A stretch of DNA of 64,000 bases from Thraustochytrium sp. TN22 (taxonomy: Eukaryota; Sar; Bigyra; Thraustochytrida; Thraustochytriidae), in contig JABLUY010000016.1 of assembly GCA_013306675.1 (NCBI GenBank), forward strand, positions 62,001 to 126,000. The letters run 5' to 3'. This document shows, one piece after another, positions 8,736 through 36,901 of the stretch. The position numbers and the translations under genes are program-made. A model generated the notes under the pieces. It ran no database searches. It worked only from the letters and a program-made list of their open reading frames with translations, and was not told the DNA's origin. Every line of letters starts with the position of its first letter. Position 1 is the stretch's first letter.

Positions 8736-11700
8736 ATGGAGATCGGGGAGCAAGAGGCCGCGGCAGGCGGCCACGACGGCGGTCTCGTCGACCGCGGCGG
8801 CCCCAACGACCTCGACGATGATGGCCTCGAAGATTATGCTGATGGCATTCTTGAAGGCATCGAATCAGCGCATTCGTTTCCCGCGCTGGGAGCACCGGAC
8901 GATGCTGAGGTCCAGGATGAGGATCCAGAATCGTTGGGTCCGCGCAACGATCCGGCGTACGCCCCGATGCACCTCCCTCCCGAGATGGGCAATCAGCTGC
9001 CGCATCGCGTCGAAGGGGATCTGGGTGCGGATGGCCAGCAGCAGGGCGACCTTGGACCGCAGCAGGATCCGCTGCCGCCGGTGCAGCCGCATGCACCGGC
9101 TGGAATGCCGCCTCATCCCGGCGACATGGATCTGGGGTTGGGTGGTCATGGCCAGCAGCAGGGCGACCTTGGACCGCAGCAGGATCCGCTGCCGCCAGCG
9201 CCGCCTCATGCACCGGCTGGAGTGCCACCTCATCCCGGCGACATGGATCTGGGGTTGGGTGGTCAGCAGCAGGACAACCATGGATGGCAGCAGCATCAGC
9301 ATCTGCCACAACCGGTACAGATGCCGCCCCAGGGACAGCATTGGCCGCAGCTGCCGCCTCATGCACCGGCTGGACTGCCACCTTATCCCGGCGACATGGA
9401 TCTGGGTGCGGATGGTGCATATGGCCGACAGCAGGACTATGATGGACGGCAGCACCATCAGCAGCCGCCGCCGCCGCCGCCTGCTGCACCGCACTTCATG
9501 CGTGAATCGCGACATCAAGCGCAGTTACCGCCTGGACCGGCGGAATCTGCACGCGATCGCTTCTTGGGTCGCGTAGGTGGCCGCACGCTGGCCGACGAGA
9601 TCGAGAGCTCCTTTAGCAGCGACCCTTCGACTGCGGGTCGCAGGGGGGCCGCCGAAAGGGTGAACGGGGACCTTCTCCTAGTCGTTCAGCAACTGGAGAG
9701 AGGGGCCTTCGTCGACCTGGGGGGCATGCCGGATCTGGACGACACGCGCGAGACGGTGGCTGCCGCCGTCCTCCGCAGTACTGATCGGAGACGCGACGGG
9801 CGCCCCTTGCTGCAGATTTTGCAGGATGCAGAGCCAAATCTCGGCTCAGTGGGCCTCGATGATCCGAATCATTGGAATGGCCTCGCCGGCTACGCGCAAG
9901 CGTTGCGCCGAGACGAAAACCCGGCGCTCCCGCGTCAAGGGACCTGGCGCGCCGCTGTCGCCTACCTTGCGGACATGCTGATCCGGGAAGGTGCCATTGG
10001 CCAGCAGGTGGCCGAGCAATGGATCGCTCGAGGCGGCCTGTACCCACAGACGGCGACACGCAACGAGAGGCTCGTCTTCACGCCGCTGGGAGATCTGCTC
10101 GACCTCCTCTTCGCAAACCTCGAAGACCGCTCGCAAGCCCTGGAGTCGCGCCTGCTGCTCTCCATGGCAAGAAACGAGATCGCCTACCCCTACGCCGGGC
10201 TGGTGGCTCGCTTGCTCCCAGACTTCGACCGCTCTCAGCTCATGGCACACTTTGTGCGCTGGTGCGCCGCCGTCCTAGCGTATGGGACCCAGGATACCCC
10301 TGAGCTCGCGAGCGAGGTCGACAAGATGAGGCGCTCTCCTCCAAGCGCGCAGGGTCGCAAGCGCGGCGGTGGTAAGGGCGGCAAGGGCGGTAAGGGCGGC
10401 GGCGGGAACGGCAAGGGCGCAGGCAGCAAGCGCCGGCGCCAAGACGATCAGGGCGGCGAGGGCTCCTCGTACTCGGACGGCCACTCTTCGTTCTCGTCCT
10501 TTGCTCTGGCCGCTCTCGCGTACGGCTTCGGCCTCTTTCTCTCAACCCTGCGGGCAATGCTCGCGCCGCTATTTTCGGCTGTGGATGATGGCGAGAAGCG
10601 CTTGTTGGCGTCTAGCAGCACGTCCGGCAGCATCAGCAGCACAAGCAGCACACCCGGCAGCAGCCGGGACGGTGATGGCCAGCCCGCACCGGCCGTGGCG
10701 CCCGCCGAACGCAACGGCGTCAGCGTAGGCTTCATCAAGCTCTTCGAGCTCTACCTGGCCAAGCACGCTGGGGACGGCGCCACTCTCCCGCCCGGCATGA
10801 CGGCCTACGAAGTGGTTGCCGGGACCAGCAAGGAGTCTTTCGCGGCCGGCCAGGACACCGAGGAGGAGGGTTCACAGGCGCAGCCGCTGTGGACCATCCG
10901 CAAGCTCACCGAGGGCGGCACGGATGGTGCTGCGCCCTTGGGTGGCGCGGCGCTCGCCGACGTGCTGCAGTCATCGCGCGGAGAAAAGCTCAAAGCAGAG
11001 CTTGCGGCGCTGGCGCATCCCGGGAGCGTCGAGGCGGACCCGACGACCTGGTTCGGCGAGCCCTCCATGTACGTCTGCCACGCATGGCAGGTGCCGTTCA
11101 AGAGCTTCGTCAACGCCATCGTTACGTGGACCGCGCAGCTTCCTGCAGAGAGGCCCTCAGACTACCTGTGGATCGACCTGTTCTCCTTCGCTCAGGGCGC
11201 CGGCGGCGCGGCTTCACTCGCGCCGTCGGAAAAGGCCGTGCAGGTGCAGAAGCAACAGGAGCGCGCGAGCCTGGCGCACGACCTGCAGGGCCGCATCGAG
11301 AGCATGAAGTGCGGCACGCTCGTCGTCATGGACCGCTGGACGGCGCCCACCGTCCTGCAGCGCACTTGGTGCTGGTTCGAAATGTCTCTCGCGCTGCAGG
11401 CGGGCAAGACACTGGAAATGGCGCTTCCGGCTGACGAGCAGGATGACCTCGAGCGCGTCAGCAAGAGTACTCTAGGCTTGGACACCAAGGCCATCGGCGA
11501 GGACCGGCGCAGGGAGGAGCTCAAGGCGGTGGGAGCCATGTTCCGCGAGGCAACCATCCAGAAGAGCGACTGCACGGACCCCCGCGACCGCAGGTCCCTC
11601 ATGCGCTCTCTGCAGCGCAAGAAGCACGATGTGGCCGTGGACGCCCAGGTGAAGCGCACTGTCCTCGAAATGCTGCTCGCGCCGGTCCAGAAGCTCATTC

Positions 11701-13199
11701 GCGAGCACAAGGCCGCCTGCGACCCGGTCGAGTTTGTGGCCCAACTCTCGCCACACCTGGACGATGTGAACGGCGCAGCGCTCTACCTTGCGCTCGCGCC
11801 CACGTTTACAATCCGGGGCGCAGACTCCGCCGGCATTGCACTTCTCGACGAGGCCATTGCCAAGCTCCAGGCCAAGCTCCCTGAGCCTCCCAAGGCGAAC
11901 GCCCCGGCGCAGGCCGTCTCGGCCGCGGACGAAGAGGCGTGGCGGTCCCCAGAGGGCGAAGCCCTGGGCCGCCTGCTCATGAGCAAGGGCCGCATGCACT
12001 GTGACCACTTCTCGGACGAGCACGTCGGCGTGGCCGTGGACTGCCTCACTGGCGCGATGCGCCTCATGAAGCTCAATGAGGACTGCACGTTCCTTTGGCT
12101 GGCGCAGTACTTCCTCGCAAGGAGCTTGCTCAACTACCACTTCAGACTCTCGCGCCGCCACAAGGCGCGGCGCGATCAAGCCGCCGATCTCGAACTCTCC
12201 GAGAAGCCGCTGCGAGAGGCCATCGAGTACCTCGAAAACCACGACGCCCACAACCCCACTCTTGGCGCCATGTACATACACCTGGCCAAGGCGCTCGACC
12301 TGCGCAAGGCCTCCGACGACTCGATCGCGGACGAGATGATCGACAAGTGTCTGGAGAAGGGGCTCGCCATCCAGATCGAGCAGTACCCCGCTGGTGTGTT
12401 TGACGCGCGCTGCGGCATGTCGAAGATGTGCTTCGGAGGCAGTCTGCTGTGGCGCGGCCGCTACGGTCGTGCTCTAGACATCCTCATCGACGCTTTCGCG
12501 CATCAACAGCGCGCCGCGCTCAAGAAGCACTGCCCACCGAGGCGCGTGCTCGTCAACCTTGACCGCATATTCATGTGCTTCGACAAACTCGCTGAGACCT
12601 TCCCCAAGCGCCGCAACGACTATCTGCGCCAGGAGCGCGACTTCCTCCTCAGGCACGGTGGCGAGCGCCTGCTCATGGAGCTCTACAACGCCTTTCCCGA
12701 GAAGGACCTGCACAAGGACGCCATCCCCATCTCGCTCGACCTCGATTTTCGCATCCAGCGCACCCTCTCACGCGTCTTGCTTCTCGACGACGACGAAGAT
12801 CGTGCTGAGAAGCTCAAGGAGGACATCATGGCGAAGCAGCCCGCTGCCACAATCTCCGTCGCATCCGACCCCAAGGACCTGGACAAGAAGCTCACAGACC
12901 ACGTCTTTGCCTCGGTTGCTATCGCCGACACCTTTCCCCTCAAGGACAGCGCGGCTCTCGGCGCGTTTATGGGTGCTCAAGCGAGGCGCAAGCAACAGGG
13001 CCAGCCGGCCGCGCGCATTCTCCTCTACGCCACCATGGCCAGCGCTGACGCACACCACGTCAAGGGTGACCAGGACCAGGACATGGACCTTTCTGTCGCC
13101 TCGCTAGCCTCTCGCGTCGCCAGTGGTCTCACCCGCCTCGGCGAGCAGCCCTTTTGGGATCCTCAAGCTCACGGCCCGCGACTTCTCGAGCGGGTCTGA
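8736..13199 (+). CDS. Large paralogue A: WCA domain, TIR-like domain, TPR-like region, receiver-like C-terminus (1487 aa)
   Basis: Exact role unknown. The start is the first in-frame ATG; upstream in-frame sequence lacks ATG. Residues ~100-235 are Pro/Gln-rich with a ~39-aa tandem repeat. Residues ~300-515 are the family's helical domain ending in VRWCAAVL (W509). A Gly/Lys linker (~530-575) and a hydrophobic stretch (~588-613) follow. Residues ~770-960 form a TIR-like domain with YVCHAW at the first strand, LWIDLFSFAQ at the second and WCWFE (E882) at the position of the TIR WCxxE motif; similar domains occur beside kinesin-light-chain TPRs in algal proteins. Residues ~995-1340 are TPR-like and contain NLDRIFMCFDKL (from 1274). 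Residues ~1343-1440 resemble a receiver domain (RVLLLDDDEDRA). The gene heads a tandem array of four. The architecture suggests a signalling or immune-type scaffold, but this is inference. Confidence 0.88.
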   Translation: MEIGEQEAAAGGHDGGLVDRGGPNDLDDDGLEDYADGILEGIESAHSFPALGAPDDAEVQDEDPESLGPRNDPAYAPMHLPPEMGNQLPHRVEGDLGADGQQQGDLGPQQDPLPPVQPHAPAGMPPHPGDMDLGLGGHGQQQGDLGPQQDPLPPAPPHAPAGVPPHPGDMDLGLGGQQQDNHGWQQHQHLPQPVQMPPQGQHWPQLPPHAPAGLPPYPGDMDLGADGAYGRQQDYDGRQHHQQPPPPPPAAPHFMRESRHQAQLPPGPAESARDRFLGRVGGRTLADEIESSFSSDPSTAGRRGAAERVNGDLLLVVQQLERGAFVDLGGMPDLDDTRETVAAAVLRSTDRRRDGRPLLQILQDAEPNLGSVGLDDPNHWNGLAGYAQALRRDENPALPRQGTWRAAVAYLADMLIREGAIGQQVAEQWIARGGLYPQTATRNERLVFTPLGDLLDLLFANLEDRSQALESRLLLSMARNEIAYPYAGLVARLLPDFDRSQLMAHFVRWCAAVLAYGTQDTPELASEVDKMRRSPPSAQGRKRGGGKGGKGGKGGGGNGKGAGSKRRRQDDQGGEGSSYSDGHSSFSSFALAALAYGFGLFLSTLRAMLAPLFSAVDDGEKRLLASSSTSGSISSTSSTPGSSRDGDGQPAPAVAPAERNGVSVGFIKLFELYLAKHAGDGATLPPGMTAYEVVAGTSKESFAAGQDTEEEGSQAQPLWTIRKLTEGGTDGAAPLGGAALADVLQSSRGEKLKAELAALAHPGSVEADPTTWFGEPSMYVCHAWQVPFKSFVNAIVTWTAQLPAERPSDYLWIDLFSFAQGAGGAASLAPSEKAVQVQKQQERASLAHDLQGRIESMKCGTLVVMDRWTAPTVLQRTWCWFEMSLALQAGKTLEMALPADEQDDLERVSKSTLGLDTKAIGEDRRREELKAVGAMFREATIQKSDCTDPRDRRSLMRSLQRKKHDVAVDAQVKRTVLEMLLAPVQKLIREHKAACDPVEFVAQLSPHLDDVNGAALYLALAPTFTIRGADSAGIALLDEAIAKLQAKLPEPPKANAPAQAVSAADEEAWRSPEGEALGRLLMSKGRMHCDHFSDEHVGVAVDCLTGAMRLMKLNEDCTFLWLAQYFLARSLLNYHFRLSRRHKARRDQAADLELSEKPLREAIEYLENHDAHNPTLGAMYIHLAKALDLRKASDDSIADEMIDKCLEKGLAIQIEQYPAGVFDARCGMSKMCFGGSLLWRGRYGRALDILIDAFAHQQRAALKKHCPPRRVLVNLDRIFMCFDKLAETFPKRRNDYLRQERDFLLRHGGERLLMELYNAFPEKDLHKDAIPISLDLDFRIQRTLSRVLLLDDDEDRAEKLKEDIMAKQPAATISVASDPKDLDKKLTDHVFASVAIADTFPLKDSAALGAFMGAQARRKQQGQPAARILLYATMASADAHHVKGDQDQDMDLSVASLASRVASGLTRLGEQPFWDPQAHGPRLLERV
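9031..9440 (+). repeat. 117-bp coding tandem repeat in paralogue A
   Basis: About 3.5 copies of a 117-bp (39-codon) unit. The first two are nearly identical in DNA, the later ones diverged. Each encodes HAPAG-x-PP-x-PGDMDLG followed by a Gln-rich linker. The reading frame is kept throughout, so length can change without breaking the protein. Confidence 0.85.
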
Positions 13200-13750
13200 T
13201 ACTGTATGTAATGATTTTGTTGGTATCCTTTCTTCACTGTTTCCGCGCCGCCTTGGCGCGCACCTTGAAGAGCTGCAAGAGCTTACTGTGTCTGATGATG
13301 TGAGTTCAAGTTCTCTCCCCGCGTATCGCCCGCGGACTCCGAGTCGGACGCTGGGAGGTAAACGTAACCAACCGCATTGCTCGACGCACACCACGTGGAG
13401 CGTCTCATTCACGTGGTGCGCCGCACGCCTGCACTGGCGCGACCAGTGCCGCCGTCCGAGCTGAGTTACGGCGACCGTCCGAGTCCGAGTCACGCCGCTC
13501 AGGTGAGTCAAGTTAGACTCAGACGAGTCACAGCCGACTGGGCCCAACAGTAGACGTCCAGTAGGCAACCCAGTGTACTTTATATTTTACCCTACTTCCA
13601 CGCCCACGCAGTACTAGGCCTAACTAGCTAGTAGGCCTGGACTGCGAGCGTGACTCGGCCGCCGCCGCGAAGCCAACGCGCAGCGCGCAGTACCGTCGCG
13701 GCGGCCGCGGCAGACCAGGATCAGGCGTCGCGCGCCCCGCGGCGACGGCG
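13200..13750. other. Spacer between paralogues A and B
   Basis: 550 bases without a recognised gene. TGTAA-like words follow the stop of A (about 13206). The spacer holds several GACTC/GAGTC words and an ACTGGCGCGACCAGTGC near-palindrome at about 13433. It should contain the 3' end of A and the promoter of B. Confidence 0.5.
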
Positions 13751-16690
13751 ATGATGACGCCCGCCGGGCAGGCCAAGGTCGCCATGCTGCTGGAGCAGGA
13801 GCTGGGCATGAGCCCGGGCCAAGACCAGGATCTCGACCACGACTCGGAGGTGGTGGACACGTCGGACGGGACGCGGAGCGCGGCACAGCGAAACCCGGAG
13901 GGCAAGCGCAAGAGCGGGGCGACGATCTCTGGCCGAGAGAAACGCCAGCACGTGCAGGCTGCGGCTTCGCAGGAGGAACAACCCGTGCTTGAAGGCCTGG
14001 GGGGGATTTCCAACCCGACCGGGGCACGTGAGGCGACCGCAAAGGACATCGGGAAGAGCGTGGAAAAGGTGATCTTGGCTCTCCGCGGCAAAAAGAGCAA
14101 GGCTACAACTTCCAGTGATGACAAGGATACAACTCGCAAGATGATGCTTGCTTCGTCGCGCCGGACGATGCTCGCGGTGATCACAAAATCGGCGCGTGCT
14201 GTTGAGGACCCCGAGTTGTCGCACGTGCTGCTGAAGACTACCCTCGACCATCTCGATGTCCGCCCCGAGGGCAAGAAAGAGCTCAGCCCCGAGGACATGA
14301 ATGAACTCCGCATCGCAGCAGAATCGATGCTCAAGGAGGAGGAACCAGCCGAAGGCGTCGTGCAAAAGGCCGCCAAGCAGTGGCGTGCCACGGTGCTGCA
14401 CCTTGTCGCGGCGCTGTGCCGCACGCAGAGCACGGACGCGTGGCACAAAGCCGTTCACTGGAGACAATGCGGCGGCTTGCTGTGGGAGACGGGCAGCAAC
14501 AACGAGGGCCAGATCTTCACGAAGCTACAGGGGTTGCTCGACAAGTTGCTTCCTTGGATTGGAAGCACGCACCAGAATCCAGAGGCCCTCATCAAGGGCG
14601 CCCTGGACGACTGCGAGAAGGCCGTAACAAACATGTACAGAGGCGTCGTGGACGCCCTCTGGGCTGCCAAGGACGACCTGTCTTTCCCCGTGAAATGGAT
14701 GCGGTGGTGCGCAGCTCTCATCTTCCTTGGGTCAACGAGCATCGAGAAGTCCAAGCCCAGTGGGGTCGACAAGAAGGTGTCTGCCGAGTCAGTGCTCAAG
14801 ATCTTCAAGGGGACCAAGCTCGAGCAGATCAGCCCATCTTTCAAGGCGTGCGTAGAACAGCACAGAGCGCGAGGCGACGAGGCTGCCTTCCTCATGGCTG
14901 TGCATGATTGCCTTGAAGTCTCTCATTTGGCCGAGTACGTCCGCGATCTCAGCCCACACTTTACCATCACTGGGCAGAGCGATGAAGGCATCGCAGTCCA
15001 TCGCAAGGCCCTTGCGAAAATCACGGAGTGGTGCACGAACGCGGAGGAGACAAAGCTCTCGGATCCGAAACAAGTGGACGCTTTACGCACGCTCAAGCTT
15101 TGCCTGGAGGTGAGCCTCGGTCGCCTCCTGTGCGACAAGTTTGAAGAGCCGGCTGTCGAGGAGGCTGTTGAAAAGCTGGACAACGTCATCGCAACGCCGA
15201 AGCTGCATGTGCCTAAACACACGCTATTTCTGGCCCGCTACTTTCGGGCCAGGTCCGTTCTCAACCACCACTTTACCATGTCGCGCCGGCATCAGACGAG
15301 GCGCAACAAGAGCGAGGACCTCGTCAAGGCGAAAAGCGATCTCGACTTCTGCATTACAAACTGGGAAGGGGCCCTCAAGAGCAGTGATGGTGCTCTTCTT
15401 GAGGGCACGCTTGGCGCCGTCTACGTCCATCTCGCCAAGTACCACGACCTTAATGGCGACAGGCTGCGGTGCGCCTCGGAGTGCTTCGACATCGGCATAG
15501 ATATTCAGGCGCGTGCATACGGCGTCGATGATGTACGGTGCTCCATGTCCCTCATGTGCAAGGGAAGCAGCTTGCTGTGGCACGACAAGCCCGCCTTTGC
15601 CCTCCGCAATCTGCAGGATGCTTTTCCAGGGCACGTTAAGGCAGCCATGTGGAAGGGCCAGGTTGCCCCGGTTGATCGTGCGCTCGCCAATCTCGACCGC
15701 ATCTTCATGTGCTACGACAGACTGGAAACACTCGCGAAAACTGCCGAGGAAAAGTCCAGGCTCCCCATGTCAGAAGATGCATTTCTCAAGGGGGCGGACT
15801 CGGACAAGAACGCCGCGGGCGCGGAGAACGACCTTCTCAGGGTCCACAGGAAGGACCGAAGCCTGCGGCAGCGTCGCAAGTTTCTGTCCATTGACGTCGA
15901 CTTCCGCCTCCAGATGCGCTACAAGCGAGTTCTCATCGTTGACGGCGACTCGGAGCGGGCCGGCAGGCTCAAGGATCGTTTGGATCGTTTGGCGGCCGTG
16001 GGCGAGGTGACTCTCGTATCAAGCCCGGCAGAGCTTCGAGTGGTTGCCTTTGAGCGCGTTTACGCCTGCGTACTGGTGGCTAGCGACTTCAAGCTCACTG
16101 GCAAGGACAAAGACCTCGCACCGTCCTACGGCAAGTATATCGAAAAGTATGACGACCATTACCTCATGCACAACGACGAGCTGCCCAAGGACGCGAAGAG
16201 CCTCACCTACAAGGAGAAGAAACTCACCTTCAAGGAGAAGGAAGGGCCCTCCCCAACGATCAGAAAGAAGACAGAGGATGCAGCAGCCAAAGTGGAGGAG
16301 GAGGCCAGACGGCGCGAACAATGGAAGGACGATGCTGTCCAGCTTCACAACAAGGATCTGAGCAATGCTCAGGTCCTCTCGCAAAGCGCTCCGAGCCCAC
16401 CGCGTGAGCCGAACACGCCTCCTCGTCTTCGCATCCGGGCCTTTCGGTACTCGGAACAGCCTCCGGACAGCCAAACTGTTGATGAGTGGCTCATCGCAAA
16501 CCTCTACATGAACCTGGGCTTCCTTGTGTCGGCCAGGGTCGCCGGAGAGGACGAGGTTGTCACACAGGCTAAAGATCTCCTCGTCGCCGACCAAACGGGC
16601 TTCTGGGATCCTCCGGCCTGGACCGCCACACTTCTGCAGCCTCGATTCACGCAACGCGCACCCAATGAGCACGCATCGCGCACTACATGA
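13751..16690 (+). CDS. Large paralogue B: WCA domain, TPR-like region, receiver-like C-terminus (979 aa)
   Basis: Function unknown. The start ATG is followed at once by a second in-frame ATG-containing leader (MMTPAGQ). A short acidic motif DLDHDSE lies near residue 30. The family helical domain (~135-325) ends in MRWCAALIFLG (W319). The TIR-like segment of paralogue A is absent: the helical domain passes almost directly into the TPR-like region (~380-720), which keeps LARYFRARSVLNHHF, LGAVYVHLAK and NLDRIFMCYDRL (from 647). From ~726 comes the receiver-like domain (RVLIVDGDSERA, then YACVLVASDF), interrupted by a Lys/Glu-rich insertion. A late RIRAFRY strand and a C-terminal FWDPPAW...LL motif shared with paralogue A (FWDPQ) follow. 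It is the most compact member and may show the minimal architecture. Confidence 0.9.
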   Translation: MMTPAGQAKVAMLLEQELGMSPGQDQDLDHDSEVVDTSDGTRSAAQRNPEGKRKSGATISGREKRQHVQAAASQEEQPVLEGLGGISNPTGAREATAKDIGKSVEKVILALRGKKSKATTSSDDKDTTRKMMLASSRRTMLAVITKSARAVEDPELSHVLLKTTLDHLDVRPEGKKELSPEDMNELRIAAESMLKEEEPAEGVVQKAAKQWRATVLHLVAALCRTQSTDAWHKAVHWRQCGGLLWETGSNNEGQIFTKLQGLLDKLLPWIGSTHQNPEALIKGALDDCEKAVTNMYRGVVDALWAAKDDLSFPVKWMRWCAALIFLGSTSIEKSKPSGVDKKVSAESVLKIFKGTKLEQISPSFKACVEQHRARGDEAAFLMAVHDCLEVSHLAEYVRDLSPHFTITGQSDEGIAVHRKALAKITEWCTNAEETKLSDPKQVDALRTLKLCLEVSLGRLLCDKFEEPAVEEAVEKLDNVIATPKLHVPKHTLFLARYFRARSVLNHHFTMSRRHQTRRNKSEDLVKAKSDLDFCITNWEGALKSSDGALLEGTLGAVYVHLAKYHDLNGDRLRCASECFDIGIDIQARAYGVDDVRCSMSLMCKGSSLLWHDKPAFALRNLQDAFPGHVKAAMWKGQVAPVDRALANLDRIFMCYDRLETLAKTAEEKSRLPMSEDAFLKGADSDKNAAGAENDLLRVHRKDRSLRQRRKFLSIDVDFRLQMRYKRVLIVDGDSERAGRLKDRLDRLAAVGEVTLVSSPAELRVVAFERVYACVLVASDFKLTGKDKDLAPSYGKYIEKYDDHYLMHNDELPKDAKSLTYKEKKLTFKEKEGPSPTIRKKTEDAAAKVEEEARRREQWKDDAVQLHNKDLSNAQVLSQSAPSPPREPNTPPRLRIRAFRYSEQPPDSQTVDEWLIANLYMNLGFLVSARVAGEDEVVTQAKDLLVADQTGFWDPPAWTATLLQPRFTQRAPNEHASRTT

Positions 16691-17899
16691 GTAGACAAAT
16701 AGAACCAGCCAGCATGCAGCATGTTCTTTTCCTCCGCGTCCGAGCCTCACGACACGGCCAAGCCTCTTGTTGCGCCTTTTCGCCGCAGTTGCGCTGCACT
16801 GTCGCGCTCTGCAGCACAATGGCATCAGCTTGGATACGTGCGTGCAAGGCTTCAAGCTCAGTCCCTCATTCCAGCTCAGACTGCGTCCCGTCACTCTTTG
16901 TCTCGCTCATCGCCCTCCACTCCATGTCTGTCTCCGCGTCTCCGCTGGGGGCTGTCAGGTCGGCAAAGCTCGCCAGCTGCCTCTAGCTACTGGCAAGCTT
17001 TCTAGACTAGCTGTCTCTCTCTCTCGGCTAGTAGAGAGAGCTAACAAACCAGCTAGCTAGCTAGCCCTCAACAACAACGATCATGTTTGCGCTGGAAAAT
17101 TTAGCTGGGTTCCACATCCATGTCGCGGGCATGGTCTGCAAGTGCACCACCACTGCTAGCAGGACGGCGGCTTGCAGCTTCGAGGGGCGCGCGACTTGCC
17201 TGTGCGCCGCCAGGACGCACAGCGCTGAGCCGTGAGCGAAGAACGACAAGATCCGCTCCTGCGGCCAACCCTGCCCCGCCAATCGCGGAGCGGCGTGCCC
17301 ACGCTGGCGCGCTGGACCCGAGCGACCGATCGGCGCCGACCGGCAAACCTGCACGAGCTCGCAAACTTGACGCCCAGACGGTGCCATACCACGCACGTTG
17401 CACTCTTGGACGTTGACAAGCCTCCCTGCCTTGCCACCTGCGACTCCAAGTCGTTCAGCCGAGCCGCAGCGGGGCCCCGCGCTGGCTCGGCTGCGTTTCG
17501 CGGGCTTTGCGCCGCGCCGCGGGCCGCCTCGCCTCGCCTCGCGCCGGCCCGGACCTTGCGCGACCTTGCCGCTCCCGCCGCGCTCCCGCCGCGCTCCCGC
17601 CGCGCTCCCGCCGCGCTCCTGCCGCGGGAGAACGACGGCGGACACGGCGCGTGCAGGCCGGCAGAGCGAGAGGGAGAGACAATCAAAGCCGCAACCATCA
17701 GCGCAGCGCGCGGGCGGCGAGCGGCGAGGGCCAGGGCGGCGCAGCGTGCGCGGGGAGGAGACGCCGGGCGACCTCGCGAGCACGGGGAGCCCCGGCGGCA
17801 GGCGTCGCGACCTCGAGCTCGAGCACGACTCGGAGACGTCGACGGGGTACGCCGGCGCGGTCGAAGGCGCCCCAAGCAGAGCGGCTCGCGTGCGTGGAG
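16691..17899. other. Spacer between paralogues B and C, possibly with an upstream exon of C
   Basis: No separate gene is recognised. At about 17810-17835 one frame reads DLELEHDSE, close to the DLDHDSE motif near the N-terminus of paralogue B, but it is out of frame with the ATG used for C. This may be part of a spliced or shifted first exon of C. TAGCTAG words occur at about 17030-17065. Confidence 0.4.
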
Positions 17900-20625
17900 A
17901 TGGCGGGCAGGAACAAGAGGACGCCGAGCAAGAAGCGGCCGCGCTCGCAGAAGGGCAGGGCATCGCAGTCGACGCGGAGGAAGAAGACGAGCGATGTCAC
18001 GGACTCGAGCACGGCGAGCGCTGGCGACAGCAGCGCGGCCTCGACGATGGCGAGCCCCTACGACGGCGCCGGGAGGCAGATGGACGACATAGTGCAGGGC
18101 AGCCTCCCTGAGCCGACGGCTGAGCAGCAAGGGTATGTCGAAGAAATGTCGGAGGAACTAAGGTGGACCGATCGTGAGAAGCTCCAAAAAAGTATGGAGG
18201 CGCTGGACAGAGCGACGCCGCCAAGCGAGGCGTGTGAGAATAGCACGCCGTGCCAGGAGCCGGAGCCTCACGAGGGCCTGACACTCGGCCGCGATGCCGC
18301 CGCCGCCAGAAACCTCGCCAGCGCCCAGGATCACCGAGGCGCCTCGGGGCCGGCAAGCCCCGACGGCATCGCCAGCTTCGACGGCAACGCCAGCCTCGAA
18401 AGCGCTATCTGCGCCAGCAGCCCGAGCGGGCAATCTCAGTCTGTACACGAGGTGCGCACCGGAGACAACGCAGACGCAAATAAGCGCCAGAGTCCGAAGC
18501 TGGCGAAACAGCTGGCGAAACAGCTGGCGAAACAGCGCGAAAGCGTTGCAAAGAAGGTTGCAGAGAAGACTGTGGAGCTGCTTAAGCTGCCTACTGGCAA
18601 TCGCGATCCCATGGACTTCGAGACGCTCGCCAACCTTCGCCAAATGCTTCTTCCCCTGCTCAGCAAATGCCTCTGCGACAGGCACTCCTGGCAGCATTCC
18701 TGGGTCAACCTGCTGCGCGAGACGGAGTGCTTTGGGGTGAGCGACGAGCGCACGTGGCGTGTGTGCGAAAAGGCGGCACAGACGATATTCAACGACTCGC
18801 AGGAGCCAGCAGATAAAGAAGCCTACGAGAACATGGGCGGTCTTCTCGCCAATCTCGCGATCAAGTTTTCGGGCGATGATGAGCAAGCCAGGGCCCTCGT
18901 CGAAGGCATGAAGGTGGACCTCGTCGACATCTCCAGGGCGGATGCAAACATCTTCAACCCGTTCCGCGTTGTCTTCACCGAGTGTTGCCGTTTCGTTGCC
19001 ACGCGAGACAACGCCCGCCTGATCAAGTTTCGCGAGAAAGTCGCAAACAAGGTGGGAAATGGGGTCCCTTCGCTCTGCCACCGCGCGTACGTGACCCTGG
19101 TGGATGAGTTTATCAAGGTGCAAGGCCGTCCAGGGTCGGAGCCAGTCAGAGTGGTGCACAAACTGCTGCGCTTGGTGGGCGCAATCCTCTACCTAGGGGC
19201 CCCACGCCATGCAGCGAAGACGAAGGAGACGAAGAAGACGAAGGAGACGAAGAAGACGAAGAAGGCGAACGGCACAGCTTCGACTGCGAAGGATGCTCGC
19301 TTCTTCCCGGCGAACATGGTGGGCTTGATTCGTACCACGATCGAAGAAAGCATCAAGCAGCATCAGGCCATCGGTGATGCAGACCTGTTCCGCAAGTTGA
19401 TTGCGCCATTTGCAGTGAGGCATTTGGGGATCTTTGCGGCGTCTAGCGTCGTGTACAGCATGAATTGCACAATCAAGGGCAAGAACCTCGCCGGCATTGA
19501 GCTTTTGACGTCAGTGGGAGACGACCTGTGGACAGCGATTGCCGAAGCAGAGGATCCTGCGGCCAACGGGGACTCGGAGAGGCACAAGACAGCCGCGCGC
19601 CGGACAGCCGCGGCGCTACGCGAACTGCAGGCACATCTGCAGGTGAGCCTGTGCCGTCTGCACTGCGACGAGTTCAAGGAGACGCACGTCGAGGCTGCTG
19701 TTGTCTACGGGGAGCAAGCCATCGAGCACATGGAAAAGACAAAGGACAAGCAGCTGGCCAAGGCCCACTACTTCCTTGCGCGAACGCTCATCTTGCACCA
19801 CTACTCCTTTCACCGACTCTTCTGCACCAAGCGCGATCTTCTTGCAGATCTCGCCAAGTCGGAACACCACATCCGGACAAGCATCGATCTCCTCGAGCAA
19901 CAGTGGGCCATGGGGGAGAGCGACTCGATGCTAGGAGCCGTCTATGTACACTACGCCAAGGTCCTGGGCTTTAAACGGGTCTGTCTCGGCCTGCGAACCG
20001 GCGAGGACGAGGACGGCTACTTCCGAAAGGCCCGCAAGATCCAGCGCGAATTCTTCAAGAAAGGCGACCCGCGCCTCCCCATGTCGTGTATGTGTGAAGC
20101 GGATTGCCTCATGTCGCGCAACTTTTTCGAGGATGCCATGGAATGCCTGCTGGAAGCACTGCAAGGCCATCTCACCGCCGTGGACAGTGGGAACTGCCCG
20201 CCTCGACGCGTCCTCGCCAACCTAGACCGCATCTTTATCTGCCTCGACAAGGCACCGGCCCTTGAGGACGACGTGCGAAAGACGCTCTTTGGGACGACGC
20301 TGGACAACCCCGCGGAGTCCGTGGAGCGCCGGCTGCTCGCCGTGCACCGCAAGCACCCAGAGCTGCGCACCGAGAGCAGCTTCGGCTCGCTCGTGGTCGA
20401 CTTCTACATTCAGCACCTCCAGCCGCGCGTTCTCATCGTGGACGCCAAGGAAGATCGCGCCACGGAACTCCAGGAGATGCTCAGGGCGCAGCTCGGCGAT
20501 TCCATCGGAATTGTCCATGTCTGCGAACAGTCGGAGATGGAGGAGGAATTGGAGAAACACGTTTTTACTTGCGTCCTCGTCGCCAACACGATCGCCGCCG
20601 CGGCTTCTCCTTCTCCTTCCTCTTC

Positions 20626-20659
<34 letters not shown>

Positions 20660-21154
20660 CCAGCTCAGGCTGATGCACCCCAGGGATCTCCCTCCACCGC
20701 CGCCGCCGAGAGTTCTTTCGCGGCGTGTCGGGTGGCGCAAGAAGCCGACGCTTTCCGCGCCAAGGTGAATAAAGCCAAGGATCGGCCCACGGCACAGGAT
20801 GAAGATCTCTCCGAAGACCAACGCAACATCAAGCGCAGGATTGAACTGGAGCGGCCGTCGCGCGTCTTTCGGTACGGGGCCCCTCCCGACAACCCAGTCG
20901 GCTTCGCCGCACATCTCGAGGCAATCTCTTCGCGCCTCGGCCTCCGCGTCGACGCCAGTCTTGTGCCAGAGGATCAACTCGTGCACATGGTCGCATACCT
21001 CAGATCCTGGAGCCAAGAAACGGCCACGCTCCTCCGCGAGAATCTTCCTCTCCTGGCCTCACCTGAGCGCACGCCTGCTCATGCACGTGCCGTGTCCGTA
21101 GCCTACTCCGCTCTCCTCACTGCAAATGCGCTTGGCGCCGGTCGCGGTTCGTAG
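17900..21154 (+). CDS. Large paralogue C: WCA domain, TPR-like region, receiver-like C-terminus (1084 aa)
   Basis: Function unknown. I use the first in-frame ATG; the open frame extends 131 codons further upstream without ATG, so an upstream exon is possible. The N-terminus is very basic (KKRPRSQKGRASQSTRRKK), a likely nuclear signal. A short LAKQ triplet repeat lies near residue 205. The family helical domain (~225-430) ends in LLRLVGAILYLG, so the usual W-C is lost here. It is followed by a KETKKT repeat. The TPR-like region (~497-840) keeps LGAVYVHYAK and RVLANLDRIFICLDK. The receiver-like domain begins at ~843 (RVLIVDAKEDRA) and carries a Ser/Ala-rich insertion before a RVFRYG strand. No TIR-like domain is present. 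It is the most diverged of the three TIR-less members in the TPR-like region. Confidence 0.85.
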
Positions 21155-21733
21155 GACGTAGTGCAGCCCAGAATAAGTGAACAAACTCATTTGAACAAAG
21201 TCTAGCTAGCTGCACTGCACCTCGCTGCACCTCGCTGTAACTACAACTGGTCGGCTGTGGTTGACGCCTGCACTGCACAGCTGGCCGAGGTGCAGCGCGC
21301 TGCAGAATCTCTGACTCACTGGCAAGTATCAGGCCAGTGCACTGGCGGCCGCCGCAGCCAGTGCCAGTGCGTCAGAGGGTCGCGTCGGCGACGCAATCGC
21401 ACTGGCACCGCGTGCGCTGGCCGCCCGCAGCCTATGACGTCGCGGCTGCTGACTCAGCCTGACTGTGACTTGTGAGTGTCCGTGACCGAGTCAGCCAAGC
21501 TCACTGACACTGTGGCACTGGCACTGGCACTGACATTGGCAACAACCACTGCACTGCAATCACTGCAAAGGCTCGAAGAAGCGGCACGTCCGGCACGTCA
21601 CGGTGTGCGGCCTTTTCCAGCCGCATCTGCCGCTCGCGCAAACAGACGAGCGACAGAAGCGAGCAGACCGAGTACGCGGCGAGCGAGAGCAAGGCCGCGG
21701 CGCGAGCGGCGCCGAGCGGCGGCGGCGGCCGCC
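21155..21733. other. Spacer between paralogues C and D
   Basis: About 580 bases, no gene. It is unusually dense in ACTGGC/GCCAGT/CACTGCA words (about 21270-21560), including GGCACTGGCACTGGCACTG just upstream of paralogue D. Similar words precede paralogue A and the gene at 29697, so they may be a shared control element or only simple-sequence drift. Confidence 0.5.
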
Positions 21734-24700
21734 ATGAAGCGGAGCGGCGGCCCGGATGAGACGTGCCAAGGAGATGACAAGTCGCCGAAGCGGCGCGCGG
21801 CCGAGCTGGCGCCGGGGAGGACGGCGGTGCAGGGCGAGCCGGACGACCAAAGTGACCAGGACGACCAGGACGTCCAGGACGACCAGGACGTCCAGGACGA
21901 CCAAGACGAACAGGACGAACTCAATGACCAGGATGCGTGGCGCGAGACGCAGGAGGGCGTTGGGCTGCCGGATGAGAGCAACTTGAGTGACGAGGACATA
22001 AAAGTGCTGCTTCAGCTCCTGTTTGCCTTCCGGGACGACGATGACGACGACGAGGGGTTTCGTGCCCAGACGCCGGAGCTGGGTTCGGACGCGGAGAGCG
22101 CGACGTCGACGATGTCTGGCACGCAGTCCGAGCAGCCGCAGGCGCGGCCGCAGGCGCGGCCGCAGGCATCGCCGCAGGCATCGCCGCAGGCATCGCCGCA
22201 GGCATCGCCGCAGGCATCGCCGCAGGCACCGCCGCAGCCGCAGCCGGAGACGCAGACGACAAACGACGGTCTGCACTGCGTGTCGGTTGCGGGTGCCTCG
22301 GAAGTCCCGAGGACTGAGACGAAGGAGTGCGATGACAAGAAGAAGTGCGATGACAAGGAGAATTCGACGAAGAAGCGCGCTGACCAGATGAAGTCTGTCC
22401 TTTGCCCGTACATGGTCCGCGTGCTGCAGGCGCTAGGCGCCAAGGTCCACGACAAATTTGAGGTGAACGAGGGCGGCGGGTCTGGGACAGGGACAAAAGA
22501 CGCAGCGTCTTGCGCCCGCGATATTGCCGTTCGTCTTGTGACGAACATGAACATGAAGCCGCCGTGCACAATGCTGGAGGTCGTGACGTACGGAATTGAC
22601 GCGTTGCACGAGTTGCGCAAGGTGGGGGAGGACCTCGGGGCTTGCAGAAAGGCGGCTCGTCAGATGGTGGATAACCCGGAGCTGGTCCAGGAGCGAAAGC
22701 ACCGAGTCCCGCTGGTGAAACATTGGCGAGCGCTGGTCCTGCTTCTCGTTGGGCAGCTCGGTCAAAAGGAGCGCGAGAAAGCTGGTCTGGGCCGCGAGCT
22801 TCAACTGGCGTGGCTGGCGCCATGTGCTCATGTCGTCGCTCCGAGATTGGCGAAACTCGGGACTCAGGCTTACAGTGAACTGCGGAAGATCCTCGACCAC
22901 TTGGCTCAGAACATCGACAAGACCAGTGAAGACCTGTGTTCCAGTGCTGAAAAGCACCTCAAGGATTTCGTCGAAGAACACTACCGCGATGCCTACGTTC
23001 CGGTAGCTAATGTCATCATCAACGCGGACGACCCCTCGGACGTATTCCTCCGTCTCGCGCGCTTTTTCGCAGCCACGCTTTATATGCCAGATGCAGAAAG
23101 CCAGCCAGATACAGAACGCCAGCCTCCGGAGCCGCGGAAAGAGAAGCAGAAAGCGAGGTCGCCTCCGAACCTCACAGACATCGACCCGTGCGCAAGCCTT
23201 GATCTCGTGCTTGGGCCGCTGGACAAGCTCAAGAAACGCCATGAGGGCCGCGCTGACCCTTGCGCTATCTTCGCACAGCTCGGGCCTGCGCTAGAGGTTG
23301 GCCACCGGGCGGAGCTCTGCATCGAAATTGCGCCGTTCTACACATTTGCCGGAAAGAACGAGGACGGCGTCCGATGCCTGAACCAGGTGATCCTGGACGT
23401 GTGCAAGGAGCTCGGTGTTTCTGCAACCGAGAGTGACCGTGCCTCGAGATTGGCGGAGGCCGAGATGGTGGGTAACCGAGATGAGAAACGACACCGACTA
23501 CTCCGATGGCTCGGCCTCTTGCTCGTTTCCAAGGGCCGCATGCATTGCGACAACTTCAACGACGAACACCTTCCGCGCGCTGTGACTTCGCTGCAGCGCG
23601 CCATCAGAATCCTGCAACTGGGAAGTCCGAGTGACGTCGCGGCCAATCCTGGGCAGCCTCAAGGAGCAGCGGAATGCAAGTCAAAGCATCATCCGTACCT
23701 CTGGCGGGCGCAGTACTTTTTGGCGCGCACGCTGCTCAACCACCACCTCACTTTGTCGCGCCGGACCAAGCCCAAGAGAGTCCTCGGCGAAGATCTCAAG
23801 ACTTCCGAAGAAGCACTCAAGCCAGCCATCGAGGCGCTAGAGGCCGAGACAACGAAACCTGGCGAGTTGGGCGCCCTCCTCGTTCATTGGGGCAAGGTGC
23901 TGGACCTGCAGCTCCGTTGCGGCGGCGCCGAACAACCTACGGATGAAGACATCAACAGCTCCTACCGCCGGGGCGTGGAGATCCAGGCTCACAACTTTGG
24001 CTTGCGTGATCCGCGCTACAACTTGTCCCTCATGTGCTGGTCTGCAAGTCACCTGATCCGAGGAGAGCCACTCGAAGCGCTACCCAAGCTCACCAGCTCG
24101 TTTAAGGTTCTCCAGTGCGCCGCACGCGATGGCAACTGTGCGCTCAAGTACGCGCTCGAGTGCCTAGAGCGCATCTTCATGTGCTACGAGATGCTGCAGA
24201 GCACGGTCCCGACGCGCGCACCTCAATGGGACGCCAACGAGCGCGACTTCTTGCTCAAGGATGGCGGCGAGGTGATGTTTATGGAGCTCTACAACTCAAA
24301 GCCTGGCGAGCGCCGGACGGAGCGCGAGCAACTCTACTTTTTCGACCTCCAGGATCGTCTGCATCGGACACTCCGTCGTGTACTCATCTACCTGCCCAAG
24401 AAAGAAGTAGCTCCCTCCGATGCTCTCGAAGCAGCGTCGGCGTCGCCAGTCCTTAGGTTGGACAAGTTTGCCGACTTCGAAACAGCGCTTGCCAGTCACG
24501 CTAGCGCCTGTCTTATCATCAGCTTCGAGGCCCTCGCCGGGATGGCCGGCGGGCCAAAGAAGAAACGCACGCCGACGAAGTCCGCAACGTCAGCGGCGGC
24601 CAGCAATCTGAGCGACTTTCTTGGTGAGAACTATCGTATCATCAGGAAGTACAGGAGTCGCATCGCAGATGGGAAAGAGATACCCTGGACACGAGTCTAT

Positions 24701-24994
24701 CTGGTCTGCGAGGACGACACGAAGAACGATGAAGCGCTCGGTTTGCTAAGGGAGACGTGCAAGATGAAGACCAACAGGAGCACCGACAAAGGCACCGGCG
24801 AAGACACCAGCGGGAGCTCCAGCGAGAATGTCAGCTTCGAGGATTTTGGCGTCGAGGTCTTCCGCGCTCAACAAGATGCCTTGGCACGCGCTCTCCAGCG
24901 CCTTGAAGAGCTCGCGAGAGCCCCTATTTGGGACAGGGATGCAAAGGCTGGTCCCTACCTACTGCGCAGGTTTCGGACTGAGGATGAACAGTAA
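21734..24994 (+). CDS. Large paralogue D: acidic/Gln-rich N-terminus, WCA-type domain, TPR-like region, degenerate receiver-like C-terminus (1086 aa)
   Basis: Function unknown. I start at the first in-frame ATG (MKRSGGPDE). Residues ~35-75 are an Asp/Gln repeat (DDQDVQ units) and ~135-172 a PQAS/PQAR repeat, both in frame. The helical domain (~215-450) ends in [12 protein letters not shown], again without the W-C. The TPR-like region (~508-880) is close to paralogue [27 protein letters not shown] and [10 protein letters not shown] are shared with small changes, as is the ERDFLL...MELYN segment. The receiver-like domain starts at ~880 with [11 protein letters not shown], so the acidic residues expected after the first strand are missing. 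The C-terminal IWD...YLLRRF motif matches the ends of A and B. D therefore looks nearest to A but without the TIR-like domain. Confidence 0.88.
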
Positions 24995-32736: not shown

Positions 32737-35700
32737 TTAGAGTGTGCCGCCGTTGTCGCCGCCAGCAAAGTCGGCGTCGGCCGGCTCGCCCTCCTTTACG
32801 TAGGTCTCGCGAAAGAGCTTGGGATCCATGGGGAACATGAGTGGGAAATGAAAGCGCGTGGCACCGAGAATGCGCTCCGGCAGCTCGTCCTTCTTGGTAG
32901 ACTCGAAGAGAAAGGCGAGGTCCAGCACGAGCGAGTTCGCATATGACTTGACCACGCTCATGAGGCTCTCGGCCACGGTGGAGGAGCTCACGTCGACGCA
33001 GATCTCGAAGTAGTTGTCGCCGCGGAAGTAGTCCGTCTGGATCTTGCGGCCCAGGATTGCCGGCTTGGACCCAATGGCCTTGCGCGCGATAAAGTACCCC
33101 TCCGTCACGCTCGGAATGATCTTGAAGCGCGCATTCCGGTACGCGTCGTCGCCCTCGACGAAGGACTTGAGCATGCGATCGAACTTGGCGTCGTCATCGC
33201 CGCGGCGGCGCGCAAAGTACGCCGCCATGTTCACGCCCTCGCCGCCGCCCAGTGGCACGGCGAAGTTAATGACCACCAGAAAGGGCCTGTCCTTGCGCCC
33301 GGCGTGCTGCTTCTGCACCAGCTCGTCGGGGTCTGCCGAGATGTGCCGCTTTGGCTTGGGGTAGAACGACCACTGGCACGCCACGAGCTCCATGGCCGAC
33401 TTGGCTGCCGGAACCTTGACACTGTCGGTCAGGTAGTTTGGCCCGCGCACCTTGTGGTAGCCCTCGATCTCGCCCGAGTCCGAGATGGCCGTCTCGCCTT
33501 TCTTGCTCCTCTTCATCGGCACGAGAAAGTTGTTCTCGTGCGGAATTTTGTACCTGTAGTCGAGGCGTTTCTTCTCCCCCTCGCTCTTCAGCTTCGAGGC
33601 CGGCACAGGCGTCTCGGTGGCCTCGGCCTTCTCCTTTCGAGCTGCCCCGGCCTGCGCGCGCCCCACCTCATTGGCCGCTTCGTCTTCGTCCTCCTCCGCT
33701 TCTTCGTCATCATCGTCATCGTTGTTGTCGTCGTCGTCGTCATCGTTGGCATTCGCATCGTCATGGACGGCGGCGGCGTCGTTCTGTTGCCTCCTCGCCC
33801 CCGAGGACGCGGGACTCTCGCTGCCGCCCTTGGCGTCGCCAACCCCGGACGCCGCCGACGCATCGTCAGCTGGGTCTTGAGTCTCCGATTTCTGTTTCTC
33901 TTGTTGCTTGCCTGCGTCGGCCGAGTCCTCAGCGGGGCCGTCCTCCCTGACCTCGGCCTTTCCGCACGGCGCCTCGGGCGGGAACCGCAGCGCCTGCTCG
34001 TAGGCATCACGCGACTTGACGAAGTTAGAGACCAGATCATCCACAGGGTACATGACCGGCCGGTGCATGCGGCAGCCTCCGATGAGGACCTCAGGCAGCT
34101 CCTCCGCGGTCTTGGACTCGAACAGGAAGGCGAGGTCGATGACCAGGCTGGTCGCATAGCTCTTGACCAAGCTCATGAGGCTCCCCGCAACCTTGCTGGA
34201 GCCCACGTCCACGCAGATCTCGAACCAGTTGTCGCCCTTGAAGTACTCGGTGTCGATCTTCTTGCCCAGAATGGCTGGCGTGCTGCCGATGCCGCGCTTG
34301 GCGATGTACGAGCCAGACACCACGTTGGGAATGATCTTAAAGCGCGAATTGCGGTGCTCGTCGTCGCCCTTGATGAAGTCGTCCAGCATGCGGTTGAATC
34401 GTGGGTAGTCCACGCCACGCCGCTTCACCAGGTACTGCACGTAGTTGCCGATGGTGGGCACCATGAAGTTGATGATGAGCATGAACGGCCTGTCCGCGCG
34501 ACCCTCGTGCTGCTGCTGCACGAGTTCCTCCGGGTCGCGCGCGATGTTGCGCTTTGGCTTGTCGAAGAAGGCCCACTGCGTCTGCACGAGCTCCATGGCC
34601 GAGACCTGGTTTGGCACCTTGACGCGATCCACCAGGTAGTTGGGCCCGCGCACGTTCCAAAAGCCCTTCTCGATGCCACTGTCCCACCACGCCGAGGTCC
34701 CGTCCTTGGAGATGCCCATGGGGATGAGATAGTTGTTGCGCGGCACGCCATACTCGTAGACGAGGCTGTCGCCGGTTGGCGTGGCATTGCCACCCTCCTT
34801 CACCTTCTTCGACGCGGGTGTCTCCGCGACATCCGTGGACCCCTTGTCCGCCGAAGCGTCCGAGCTTGTCCTGTGGGCCGGCGCTGCGTGCTGCTGCTGC
34901 TGCTGCTGCTGCTCTTGCTGCTCCTTGAGCAGCTGACGCGCTCGCTGCAGCTCGAGTTCGTCAGGCGAGAGATCCCGCAGGGAGGCAATGAGCTCTCGCA
35001 GCACGTCCACGAGGACGACCGGGTCGCGCATGAGTGTGGGCGCGTCCTCGCAGGCATTGTCGAGCGCCGCTTGCAGCTGGCACACAAAGGGCAGACTGTG
35101 CAGGTGCGCAGCTGGGTCGCGCAGGCTGGGCGGCGCCTCGGCAAGCTCCTTGAGCTCGCCTAGACATGCCACCATGGAGAGCGCGAAAGCGTTGGCCACT
35201 GGCCGTGCATACTGGAGCCAGCCGCCGGGCGCCGCGCGCAGGCCCAGCACGACCTTGGAGCTGCCGGCCCGGCCCGGCATGATGGTGGCAAAGAGGTGTG
35301 AGAGCTCGGCGTCCGGCGGCGAGGCGTTGCCCGCCTTGCTAGACGCGCGTAGCGACACGATGTACGCGCCCGAGTTCTCGCGGCACCAGTAGCGGTGCAC
35401 GGGGAAGCTACGCGCCTGCGACATGAGCGGCGCCGCGTAGTGCAGCACAAGGCGATCGTTGTGCGCGTCGATCTTCTCTGCGAGCGTCGCCGACTGAAAG
35501 GCCGAGTCCCAGGCGCAGCGCGAGCGGCTCACGTCCATGAGCATGGCAAAGACCTGCGTGGGCGCCGCGTCAATGACGACATGGCACCGCAGCTCGTGCG
35601 CGCCCACCAGGTCGTCCACATGCGCGTTCATGTCGGTCGAGCTGTAGCCGGCAAAGTCCGTCTCCAGCGCGAACACGCGCACGCCCTTGGTGCACGTCTG

Positions 35701-36482
35701 GAGACGCCACCCCTCGAACTCCGTCACGGCGTCCGGGCCCAGCAGCAGCTCGCGCGCCAGGTAAAAGTCCTCCGGCGGCCGCCCGTACTCGGCCAGGTTC
35801 CCCAGGTCCTCGACCTCCTCTGACAGGCTGCTCGCATCGTCGCCCAGCAGGTCGCGCTCAGAATATCCGGCGCTGTGAAAGGACTCCTCAACGGCGCTCA
35901 GGCCGCCGCCGCTACCCATGCCGCCGCCGATCTCCTCGGAGTCGTTGACCAGGCGCAGGTGCTTGAGCAGCGACCGACGCTTGGACGCGGGCGGCGCGTT
36001 GCCGCTCCCGTCCGCGCCGCTGTGGCGCTGCCTGTGCAGCAGGACGGCCCGCCTGATCTTGAGCTCTAGCACCTCCACCCAATACTCAATGTCGCGCGCG
36101 TTGCCGGACGCGAAGGACCACGATGTGCCGTCGTACACAACGTCGAAGCCGTACAGACCCGAGTCGCTGAGTCTGCCCTTGCGCACCACCTTGCAGTCGT
36201 GGGCGAAGACAGCCTCGCCGCGCGGCGTCGCGTCGCCCTCGCGACCAAAGTACTGCAGGCGGTCATCGTCCGCCACGATGTAGCGCATGCGCCACCCGGA
36301 CCACGACAGGTACGCGCTCAGCCGCGTAGGCTTCTTCAGCAGCGTGCCCTTGTAGATGCCCGTGTGAGCGCCAGCGCCTGCGCCGGCCCCATCCCCGCCA
36401 TCCGCGCCGCCCATGCTGCGCACGCCGCTGCGAGGCGGGCAGTCGGCCCGCGCTGCCGCGCGAGACCCGCCGCCGCCGCCGT

Positions 36483-36513
<31 letters not shown>

Positions 36514-36869
36514 TGCCGCCCGACCGCCCGCGCCGCCAGGGCCCGAGTTCGAGGTCTGGAGTTGCTGCTGCTTGCGCTGAAGCGAAGCCGACGAGGACCT
36601 GCTGCAGCTCGAGCTCGAGCTCGAGCTCGAGCTCGAGCTCGAGCCCGAGCCTGGGCTCGCGGCCGACTGCGGCGACAACGGGGAAAACCGGGAGGTCGTT
36701 CGCCCGGTGCTCGATGTACCCCTGGCCTCGAGGTCGGCGGAGCCGTCGCGGCTCGCGGAGGACGAGGACGACTCGGAGCGCACCTTGCTCGTGGCGCCGC
36801 TGGAGGACGACGACGACGACCTGCTGCTCGTGCTGTTGGAGCGAGACCTTTTACTGGGGGTGGTGGGGC

Positions 36870-36901
<32 letters not shown>

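Follow-up and report, generated by a model that had tools for sequence, protein, structure and literature searches.

A tandem array of four paralogues in Thraustochytrium sp. TN22 with a HET/TIR-like domain in its first member

Introduction

Thraustochytrids are grown industrially for omega-3 oils. In this work, a stretch of 64,000 nucleotides from Thraustochytrium sp. TN22 (contig JABLUY010000016.1, positions 62,001 to 126,000; hereafter the window) has been analysed with focus on four large neighbouring genes, A to D. These genes are true paralogues in tandem with a common tetratricopeptide repeat (TPR)-like core, and gene A possesses in addition a domain, overlooked in the original prediction made for this DNA from its letters alone, that is by motifs and profile similarity related to HET domains and, more weakly, to TIR domains, which connects the array with proteins of recognition and cell death. 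The resemblance of this domain to those that set off cell death in fungal, plant and animal immunity suggests a self-defence or signalling cluster. Tentatively, and with a confidence that falls a little short of even, the array is read as an expansion, specific to this lineage, of HET/TIR-superfamily proteins with a role in intracellular signalling, in which A would be the complete member and B, C and D effector-less paralogues.

The array

A to D are four consecutive open frames on the forward strand, each contained in a single frame (Table 1). Base-shuffling of the region (n = 100) produced a longest stop-to-stop frame of 435 codons, and the codon-position GC of A to D is gene-like, with the second position lowest (0.42-0.47) versus 0.73-0.77 at the third; frame length and codon-position GC thus identify the four frames as real genes. 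BLASTP matches were found in six out of six pairs (A-D 2e-61, A-B 3e-49, A-C 2e-40, B-C 3e-35, B-D 2e-33, C-D 1e-23), show 26-37% identity and include the TPR-like core in every pair, so that the cores are alignable across all four proteins beyond chance similarity. The paralogy on the same strand, the TPR-like region as the most conserved part and the fast-changing N-termini and linkers, all proposed in the original prediction, have thereby been confirmed. Identity between the proteins is 25-37%, the only values taken from a full-length MAFFT alignment that places the helical parts of B to D on the extra domain of A.

An equal spacing of the parts, which had also been claimed, does not hold. 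From the end of the helical domain to the start of the TPR-like part about 455 residues are found in A (517 to ~972), whereas the other three proteins have about 23-40; a fourth, HET/TIR-like domain is located in this stretch of A. The combination of domains had not been recognised from any named family, and indeed no match over cut-off was obtained for A to D with Pfam (E up to 5) or NCBIfam, with a few weak rows at chance level (in NCBIfam three, in C and D); equally, a PADLOC search of A to D gave no match at E up to 0.1.

Table 1. Positions of the array genes and their domains in the window, and contigs of further loci with a HET/TIR-like domain
Feature	Position	Strand	Description
Gene A	8736-13199	+	1487 aa; helical, HET/TIR-like, TPR-like and alpha/beta C-terminal domains
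A, helical domain	9915-10295	+	Residues 394-520; match to B 180-341, E 1.7e-7
A, HET/TIR-like domain	11055-11465	+	Residues ~774-910; CHAW 781-784, WIDLF 812-816, RTWCWFE 876-882, glutamate 882
A, TPR-like core	11649-12746	+	Residues ~972-1337
A, C-terminal domain	12747-13196	+	Alpha/beta, receiver-like
Gene B	13751-16690	+	979 aa; helical 14351-14740, TPR-like 14798-15901, C-terminal domain 15902-16687; HET/TIR-like domain not found
Gene C	17900-21154	+	1084 aa, frame open from 17417; weakly alignable helical part 18659-19207, TPR-like 19292-20401, C-terminal domain 20402-21151; HET/TIR-like domain not found
Gene D	21734-24994	+	1086 aa, frame open from 21476; helical 22694-23095, TPR-like 23171-24352, diverged C-terminal domain 24353-24991; HET/TIR-like domain not found
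21 further HET/TIR-like loci	Contigs 280, 44, 143, 50, 39, 93, 58, 407, 53, 424, 40, 102, 72, 55, 155, 198, 348, 28, 110, 254, 398		Genome search with A

The additional domain of gene A and its relatives in the genome

The genome searched comprises 37.9 Mb in 453 contigs with the window on contig 77, and all counts from the genome searches are lower bounds. Each whole-genome search with A, B, D and 1146 of the 1346 residues of F returned seven proteins, A to G, of which E and F are in tandem on contig 305 and G is located on contig 370; E, F and G share the architecture of A, with the 5' side of F cut by the contig end. An eighth protein, H (L026:3452-7258, + strand, contig 449), was found by the searches with A and F only and consists of a HET/TIR-like domain, a TPR-like part and a DNA methyltransferase end. 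Two matches of the D search (contigs 150 and 55) were set aside, as they fall on the low-complexity N-terminal stretch of D. Residues 725-1198 of A match H, and stretches within residues 762-961 match at least 21 further loci (31 of 98 candidates scored); by BLASTP, residues ~770-920 match H and six further proteins. Sixteen of the 21 loci were read, as six whole genes (T1 to T6) and ten domains, with the loci on contigs 40, 155, 348, 28 and 254 left out; together with A, E, F, G and H this provides 21 domain sequences.

The blocks [SVC][HQ]A, W[LIV]DxF and RxWCxxE are present in all 21 domains, W-x-x-x-E thus being kept in 21/21, and a glutamine after WxDxFxxx is found in 18 of them (exceptions G, T1 and L046), counts that are somewhat favoured by the sampling of copies through similarity to A. 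Among the window frames of at least 80 codons, the domain profiles identify gene A at E 5e-90 and 3e-23 and the next row has only E 0.62, so that no frame of B, C or D holds a significant match. Since the domain is present in A, E, F, G, H and the T loci, its absence in B to D is most simply ascribed to loss. This is an argument of parsimony only, because the tree of the TPR region leaves the grouping of B to D open: E, F and G group together (92/97, below the star of the tool) and nothing else is resolved.

The relation to HET is carried by a comparison of the 21-sequence profile with the HET domain of locus L037 by hhalign (score 33.5, E 6e-5, probability 65%, 45 columns). None of 200 sequence shuffles, 50 column shuffles and 120 natural segments reached this score, the natural segments being other frames of the window (120 of 146 used) with 18.6 as their best; with the 16 T domains alone the score was 31.9. 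The same 21-sequence profile aligned to four TIR domains of the genome with a score of 19.1 (0/50 column shuffles as high), and A, E, F, G and H alone still scored 18.6 (0/30 shuffles as high). The 200-sequence-shuffle controls, a single run, cover HET and the first TIR only, and the controls with 50 column shuffles are clean repeats. Though weak, the TIR alignment is collinear, running through the first strand, the second strand and the helix with the glutamate, and the conserved glutamates are aligned. Furthermore, the W-to-E spacing of RxWCxxE equals that of W71 and E75 of SARM1, residues which bind ligand according to the part of PMC7075850 cited here. By profile comparison the domain family of A is thus related to HET and, more weakly, to TIR.

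The family stands apart from the canonical domains of this genome. A search with PF06985 (HET) gave two places, one of them over cut-off (L037, 28.5 bits) and neither among A to H or the T loci, and the 17 places found with PF01582 (TIR) are all at loci other than this domain family. Four other Pfam models each match one of 11 scanned members (best E 0.008), and a PDB profile search with the HET/TIR-like domain gave only a ThiS/MoaD protein at E 1.8. The HET gene itself (L037:1084-2724, + strand, contig 110, HET over the Pfam cut-off) has a C-terminal half that appears MORN-like by eye, and L037 was the sole hit when its HET part was used for a protein search. Canonical TIR domains occur at L033, L034, L035 and L036 and form a varied repertoire, joined to what by eye are armadillo-like repeats in L033, ankyrin repeats in L035 and a Roc-COR-like part in L036.

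H carries a methyltransferase of the bacterial N6/N4 type (PF01555, E 3.6e-18; PADLOC type II methyltransferase, E 2e-16) and shares about the first half of the combined TPR and C-terminal profile (positions 6-267 of 526, E 4e-31). The fusion of HET/TIR-like domain, TPR and DNA methyltransferase in H is an unexpected combination for a eukaryote.

No further family member was found at E up to 0.01 in the context stretches L040-L043. Beyond this genome, the HET/TIR-like and the T-family alignments each led to no confirmed relatives in viral contigs or prokaryote genomes, and the TPR and C-terminal alignment to none in viral contigs, weak evidence in each case given a narrow pattern step. In a tblastn search of T4 against phages only its TPR stretch matched, in three Wolbachia phage WO records.

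The TPR-like core

The motifs that had been listed for the core are approximately right. GRMHCDxFxDEH is found exactly in A and D; elsewhere substitutions occur, with YFLARxLLN[HY]H in A and D and instead YFRARSVLNHH in B, for which YFLARxLLNHH had been claimed, LGAxYVHLAK exact in B only (YIHLAK in A, YVHYAK in C) and NLDRIFMCYDxL exact in B only.

Pfam TPR models do not match A to D (E up to 5) or E and G (E up to 1), and TPR_12 appears below cut-off in F (E 0.21) and H (E 1.3e-4). Among the T genes, TPR_12 and TPR_10 match strongly in all five scanned with Pfam (T4 left out), matches which we take to be of the kinesin-light-chain type, and NPHP3-type matches occur as well. The profile of A to G (386 residues of A) aligns to the repeats of T1 to T6 with a score of 43.5 over 262 columns, reached in none of 40 column shuffles, and in a PDB search with the combined TPR and C-terminal profile kinesin light chains rank at the top, if only at E 0.1. 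From this profile score and this ranking we conclude that the core is a derived TPR superhelix of the kinesin-light-chain type. The original prediction had considered that the cores could match a well-described family; this applies to a distant kinesin-light-chain-type TPR and to the HET/TIR-like extra domain, but no known family with the whole architecture was found. In T3 (L029), repeats that are near-identical by eye suggest concerted repeat evolution.

Such a core can also be read without any role in defence. The proteins might be scaffolds or cargo adaptors, with the TPR derived from kinesin light chains for trafficking or complex assembly, a HET/TIR-like domain that only dimerises, and B to D doing the same work without it. 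The kinesin-light-chain type of core and of the related T family, the three out of four array genes that manage without the HET/TIR-like domain and the frequent occurrence of the TIR glutamate also in TIRs without reported enzyme activity (PMC7075850, in the part cited) are consistent with this proposal. It appears nevertheless rather unlikely, as RxWCxxE is kept in every domain read, a degree of conservation that dimerisation alone would hardly seem to require, and an identity as low as that between the array neighbours (25-37%) would be unusual for trafficking adaptors.

The helical and C-terminal domains

The order of three parts proposed for all four proteins holds for the TPR-like core, less firmly for the C-terminal domain and unequally for the helical domain. 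The helical domain is significant between A and B (BLASTP E 1e-5; genome search with B E 2e-7) and partial in D, where the B-D match reaches it, and the helical part of C is barely alignable (15% identity to A; two invariant columns among the seven proteins). The helical domain of F matches those of G (E 8e-8) and E (E 1e-6). Nuclear localisation was considered as well and dropped, with basic clusters resembling nuclear localisation signals ranging in A to G from 0.8 to 2.2 times the mean of shuffled sequences.

The C-terminal domain starts with R[VA]L[IL]xDxD in A, B, E, F and G, with RVLIVDAK in C and with RVLIYLPK in D; its first strand and helix are kept in A, B and C, and the acidic residue there is lost in D. 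It might be proposed that this domain is a working receiver in a two-component-like output, taking up phosphate and thereby switching the TPR part or the HET/TIR-like domain. Receivers that pass the Pfam cut-off number at least 24 in the genome, and the first strand-helix-strand of the C-terminal profile of all seven proteins resembles six receivers of the genome (score 22.2; 0/60 and 0/50 column shuffles as high); these six, two of which are identical, are the ones whose sequence a motif picked out of twelve loci. However, over 43 columns hhalign gives a probability of only 7.8%, and 4 out of 60 shuffles, in a single run, reach the score of 14.2 obtained with E, F and G alone. Response_reg of Pfam does not match the six C-terminal fragments of A, B, C, E, F and G at E up to 10, a PDB search with the C-terminal profile returned no receivers and nothing relevant (best E 0.86), and inspection of the A to G alignment identified neither a conserved phospho-acceptor aspartate at the end of strand 3 nor a lysine in strand 5. 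With no Pfam match, no PDB receivers and no conserved phospho-acceptor, we regard the domain as receiver-like rather than as a receiver; it is probably not phosphorylated, and a phosphate-driven output is very improbable.

Among the receivers of the genome, two on contig 37 (G000:C37:43990-44346, - strand, and 56134-56490, + strand) are identical over the stretch read and 12 kb apart, which might reflect an inverted duplication or an artefact of the assembly.

The uneven preservation of the domains also bears on the idea that B, C and D are decaying, functionless copies of an A-like gene on their way to loss. The effector domain is not detectable in the three genes, the C-terminal domain of D lacks its acidic start and the helical part of C can hardly be aligned, all of which would fit decay, but long neutral drift would not leave open frames of about 1000 codons with gene-like codon-position GC at 25-37% identity, and we consider decay the most improbable of the explanations discussed.

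Proposed function

The expansion of HET/TIR-superfamily signalling proteins introduced above can be formulated as a sequence of conditional steps. In a complete member such as A, a variable N-terminus, a helical domain, a HET/TIR-like effector, a TPR-like superhelix derived from kinesin light chains and a receiver-like tail would follow each other, and in B, C and D the effector is absent, most simply by loss. The TPR-like part and the variable N-terminus might bind a ligand or a partner, upon which the HET/TIR-like domains of A and its relatives would cluster; clustered domains might then cut NAD+, consistent with the preserved W-x-x-x-E pair, or recruit partners, with defence, cell death or a stress response as the outcome. 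B to D, sharing the non-effector parts, could serve as sensors, adaptors or brakes for executors of the A type. We infer such a division into an executor-type A and effector-less partners because HET domains have been reported, in the cited part of PMC12881547, to be sufficient for fungal cell death when overexpressed.

Several observations weigh against this proposal. Pfam TIR and HET models match none of the 11 domain copies scanned (E up to 10, with HMMER filters dropping most matches above E 0.1). The HET alignment spans the first two blocks only (45 columns), the third being matched by eye, and with A, E, F, G and H alone the HET score falls to a marginal 19.6 versus a shuffle maximum of 18.4 (n = 30), so that A itself is connected to HET by way of its relatives. 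The match to TIR is likewise weak (E 0.02, probability 2%), the 16 T domains alone scoring 14.5 with 2 out of 30 shuffles as high, and with one TIR alone 3 of 200 sequence shuffles were as high. Equally, a single origin of B to D is seen in just 25% of the bootstrap trees, and no Pfam match to NB-ARC or NACHT is present in A to D (E up to 5) or E to H (E up to 1). Finally, W-x-x-x-E does not prove activity as NAD+ hydrolase (NADase): in the cited part of PMC7075850 the TIR glutamate is described as critical for NADase activity and as kept in more than 70% of TIRs, but also as frequent in TIRs without reported enzyme activity, and its presence is said not to imply activity in every case.

A bolder version can be imagined by analogy with the paired and helper NLRs of plants. 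The array would then constitute an NLR-free immune cluster of a stramenopile without a nucleotide-binding switch, in which A acts as HET/TIR NADase executor and the TPR-like and receiver-like parts bind B to D as diversified sensors; we regard this version as distinctly unlikely.

Genome and window context

An algal setting, assumed in the original prediction, is not supported for this genome. A genome search for chlorophyll-binding (light-harvesting) proteins gave no match, its positive control ringing in a cyanobacterium, and a full-length polyunsaturated fatty acid synthase of the PfaA type is encoded in a single 3044-codon frame (2540 bits). The GC content is 0.59-0.73, a value which, together with the occurrence of such a synthase in a eukaryote, is indicative of a thraustochytrid. 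ARAGORN predicted no tRNA within the window.

Outside the array, all on the reverse strand, the window holds a gene in which a START domain is combined with two EDR2_C stretches (32740-36984), EDR2_C being a plant disease-resistance regulator family, and a second EDR2_C gene (50137-51378). Furthermore, a single-chain urease that unites the gamma, beta and alpha parts within one frame (42226-44844) and a DNAJC7-like gene with a C-terminal DnaJ domain behind TPR-like repeats recognised by eye (55799-59038) are encoded.

Significance and comparison with known systems

The kinship of HET and TIR has so far been argued from remote similarity; the relation, and the occurrence of HET in Stramenopiles, are addressed in the part of PMC4986451 cited here. 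An NAD+ hydrolase activity is spoken of for the HET/TIR module in an excerpt of PMC12881547, and the mechanism of killing by HET domains was called unknown in 2024 in a passage of PMC10890737. Among the matches listed in the literature searches, no paper covers this architecture or HET/TIR-TPR families in thraustochytrids. The joint presence of HET-like blocks and a TIR-like W-x-x-x-E glutamate in 21/21 domains provides a bridge for testing both the kinship and NADase activity, and the array would offer an initial way into possible genes of defence or self-recognition in thraustochytrids. Judged from sequence, the family appears well supported and its overlooked domain meaningful, in a group of organisms rarely studied in this respect, with a remote kinship of the domain and a function that would be wholly a matter of inference.

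In comparison with the fungal HET proteins (PF06985; the HNWD family, BH of Podospora), a [SVC][HQ]A block after a hydrophobic strand, WxDxF and RxWCxxE recur. Common are also the joining of an effector domain to a repeat or other recognition domain and the organisation in large, varied gene families. Different here are a host that is not a fungus, a domain below Pfam detection, the lack of matched NACHT or NB-ARC, the TPR-like solenoid of the kinesin-light-chain type and the receiver-like tail. With the TIR domains (PF01582; SARM1, plant TNLs) the profile-aligned W-x-x-x-E glutamate and the collinear strands and helix are shared, whereas the overall similarity is weak (E 0.02), the WxDxFxxxQ block is HET-like and canonical TIRs exist separately in this genome. 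From kinesin light chains and NPHP3-type TPR proteins, a type from which the core is derived and which the sister T family matches strongly, A to G differ by repeats eroded below the Pfam cut-offs and by extra domains on both sides. The receiver domain (PF00072), finally, shares with A, B, E, F and G the R[VA]L[IL]xDxD start followed by a helix and a second strand, and the array proteins depart from it in showing, by inspection, no conserved phospho-acceptor or lysine and in their lack of a Pfam match.

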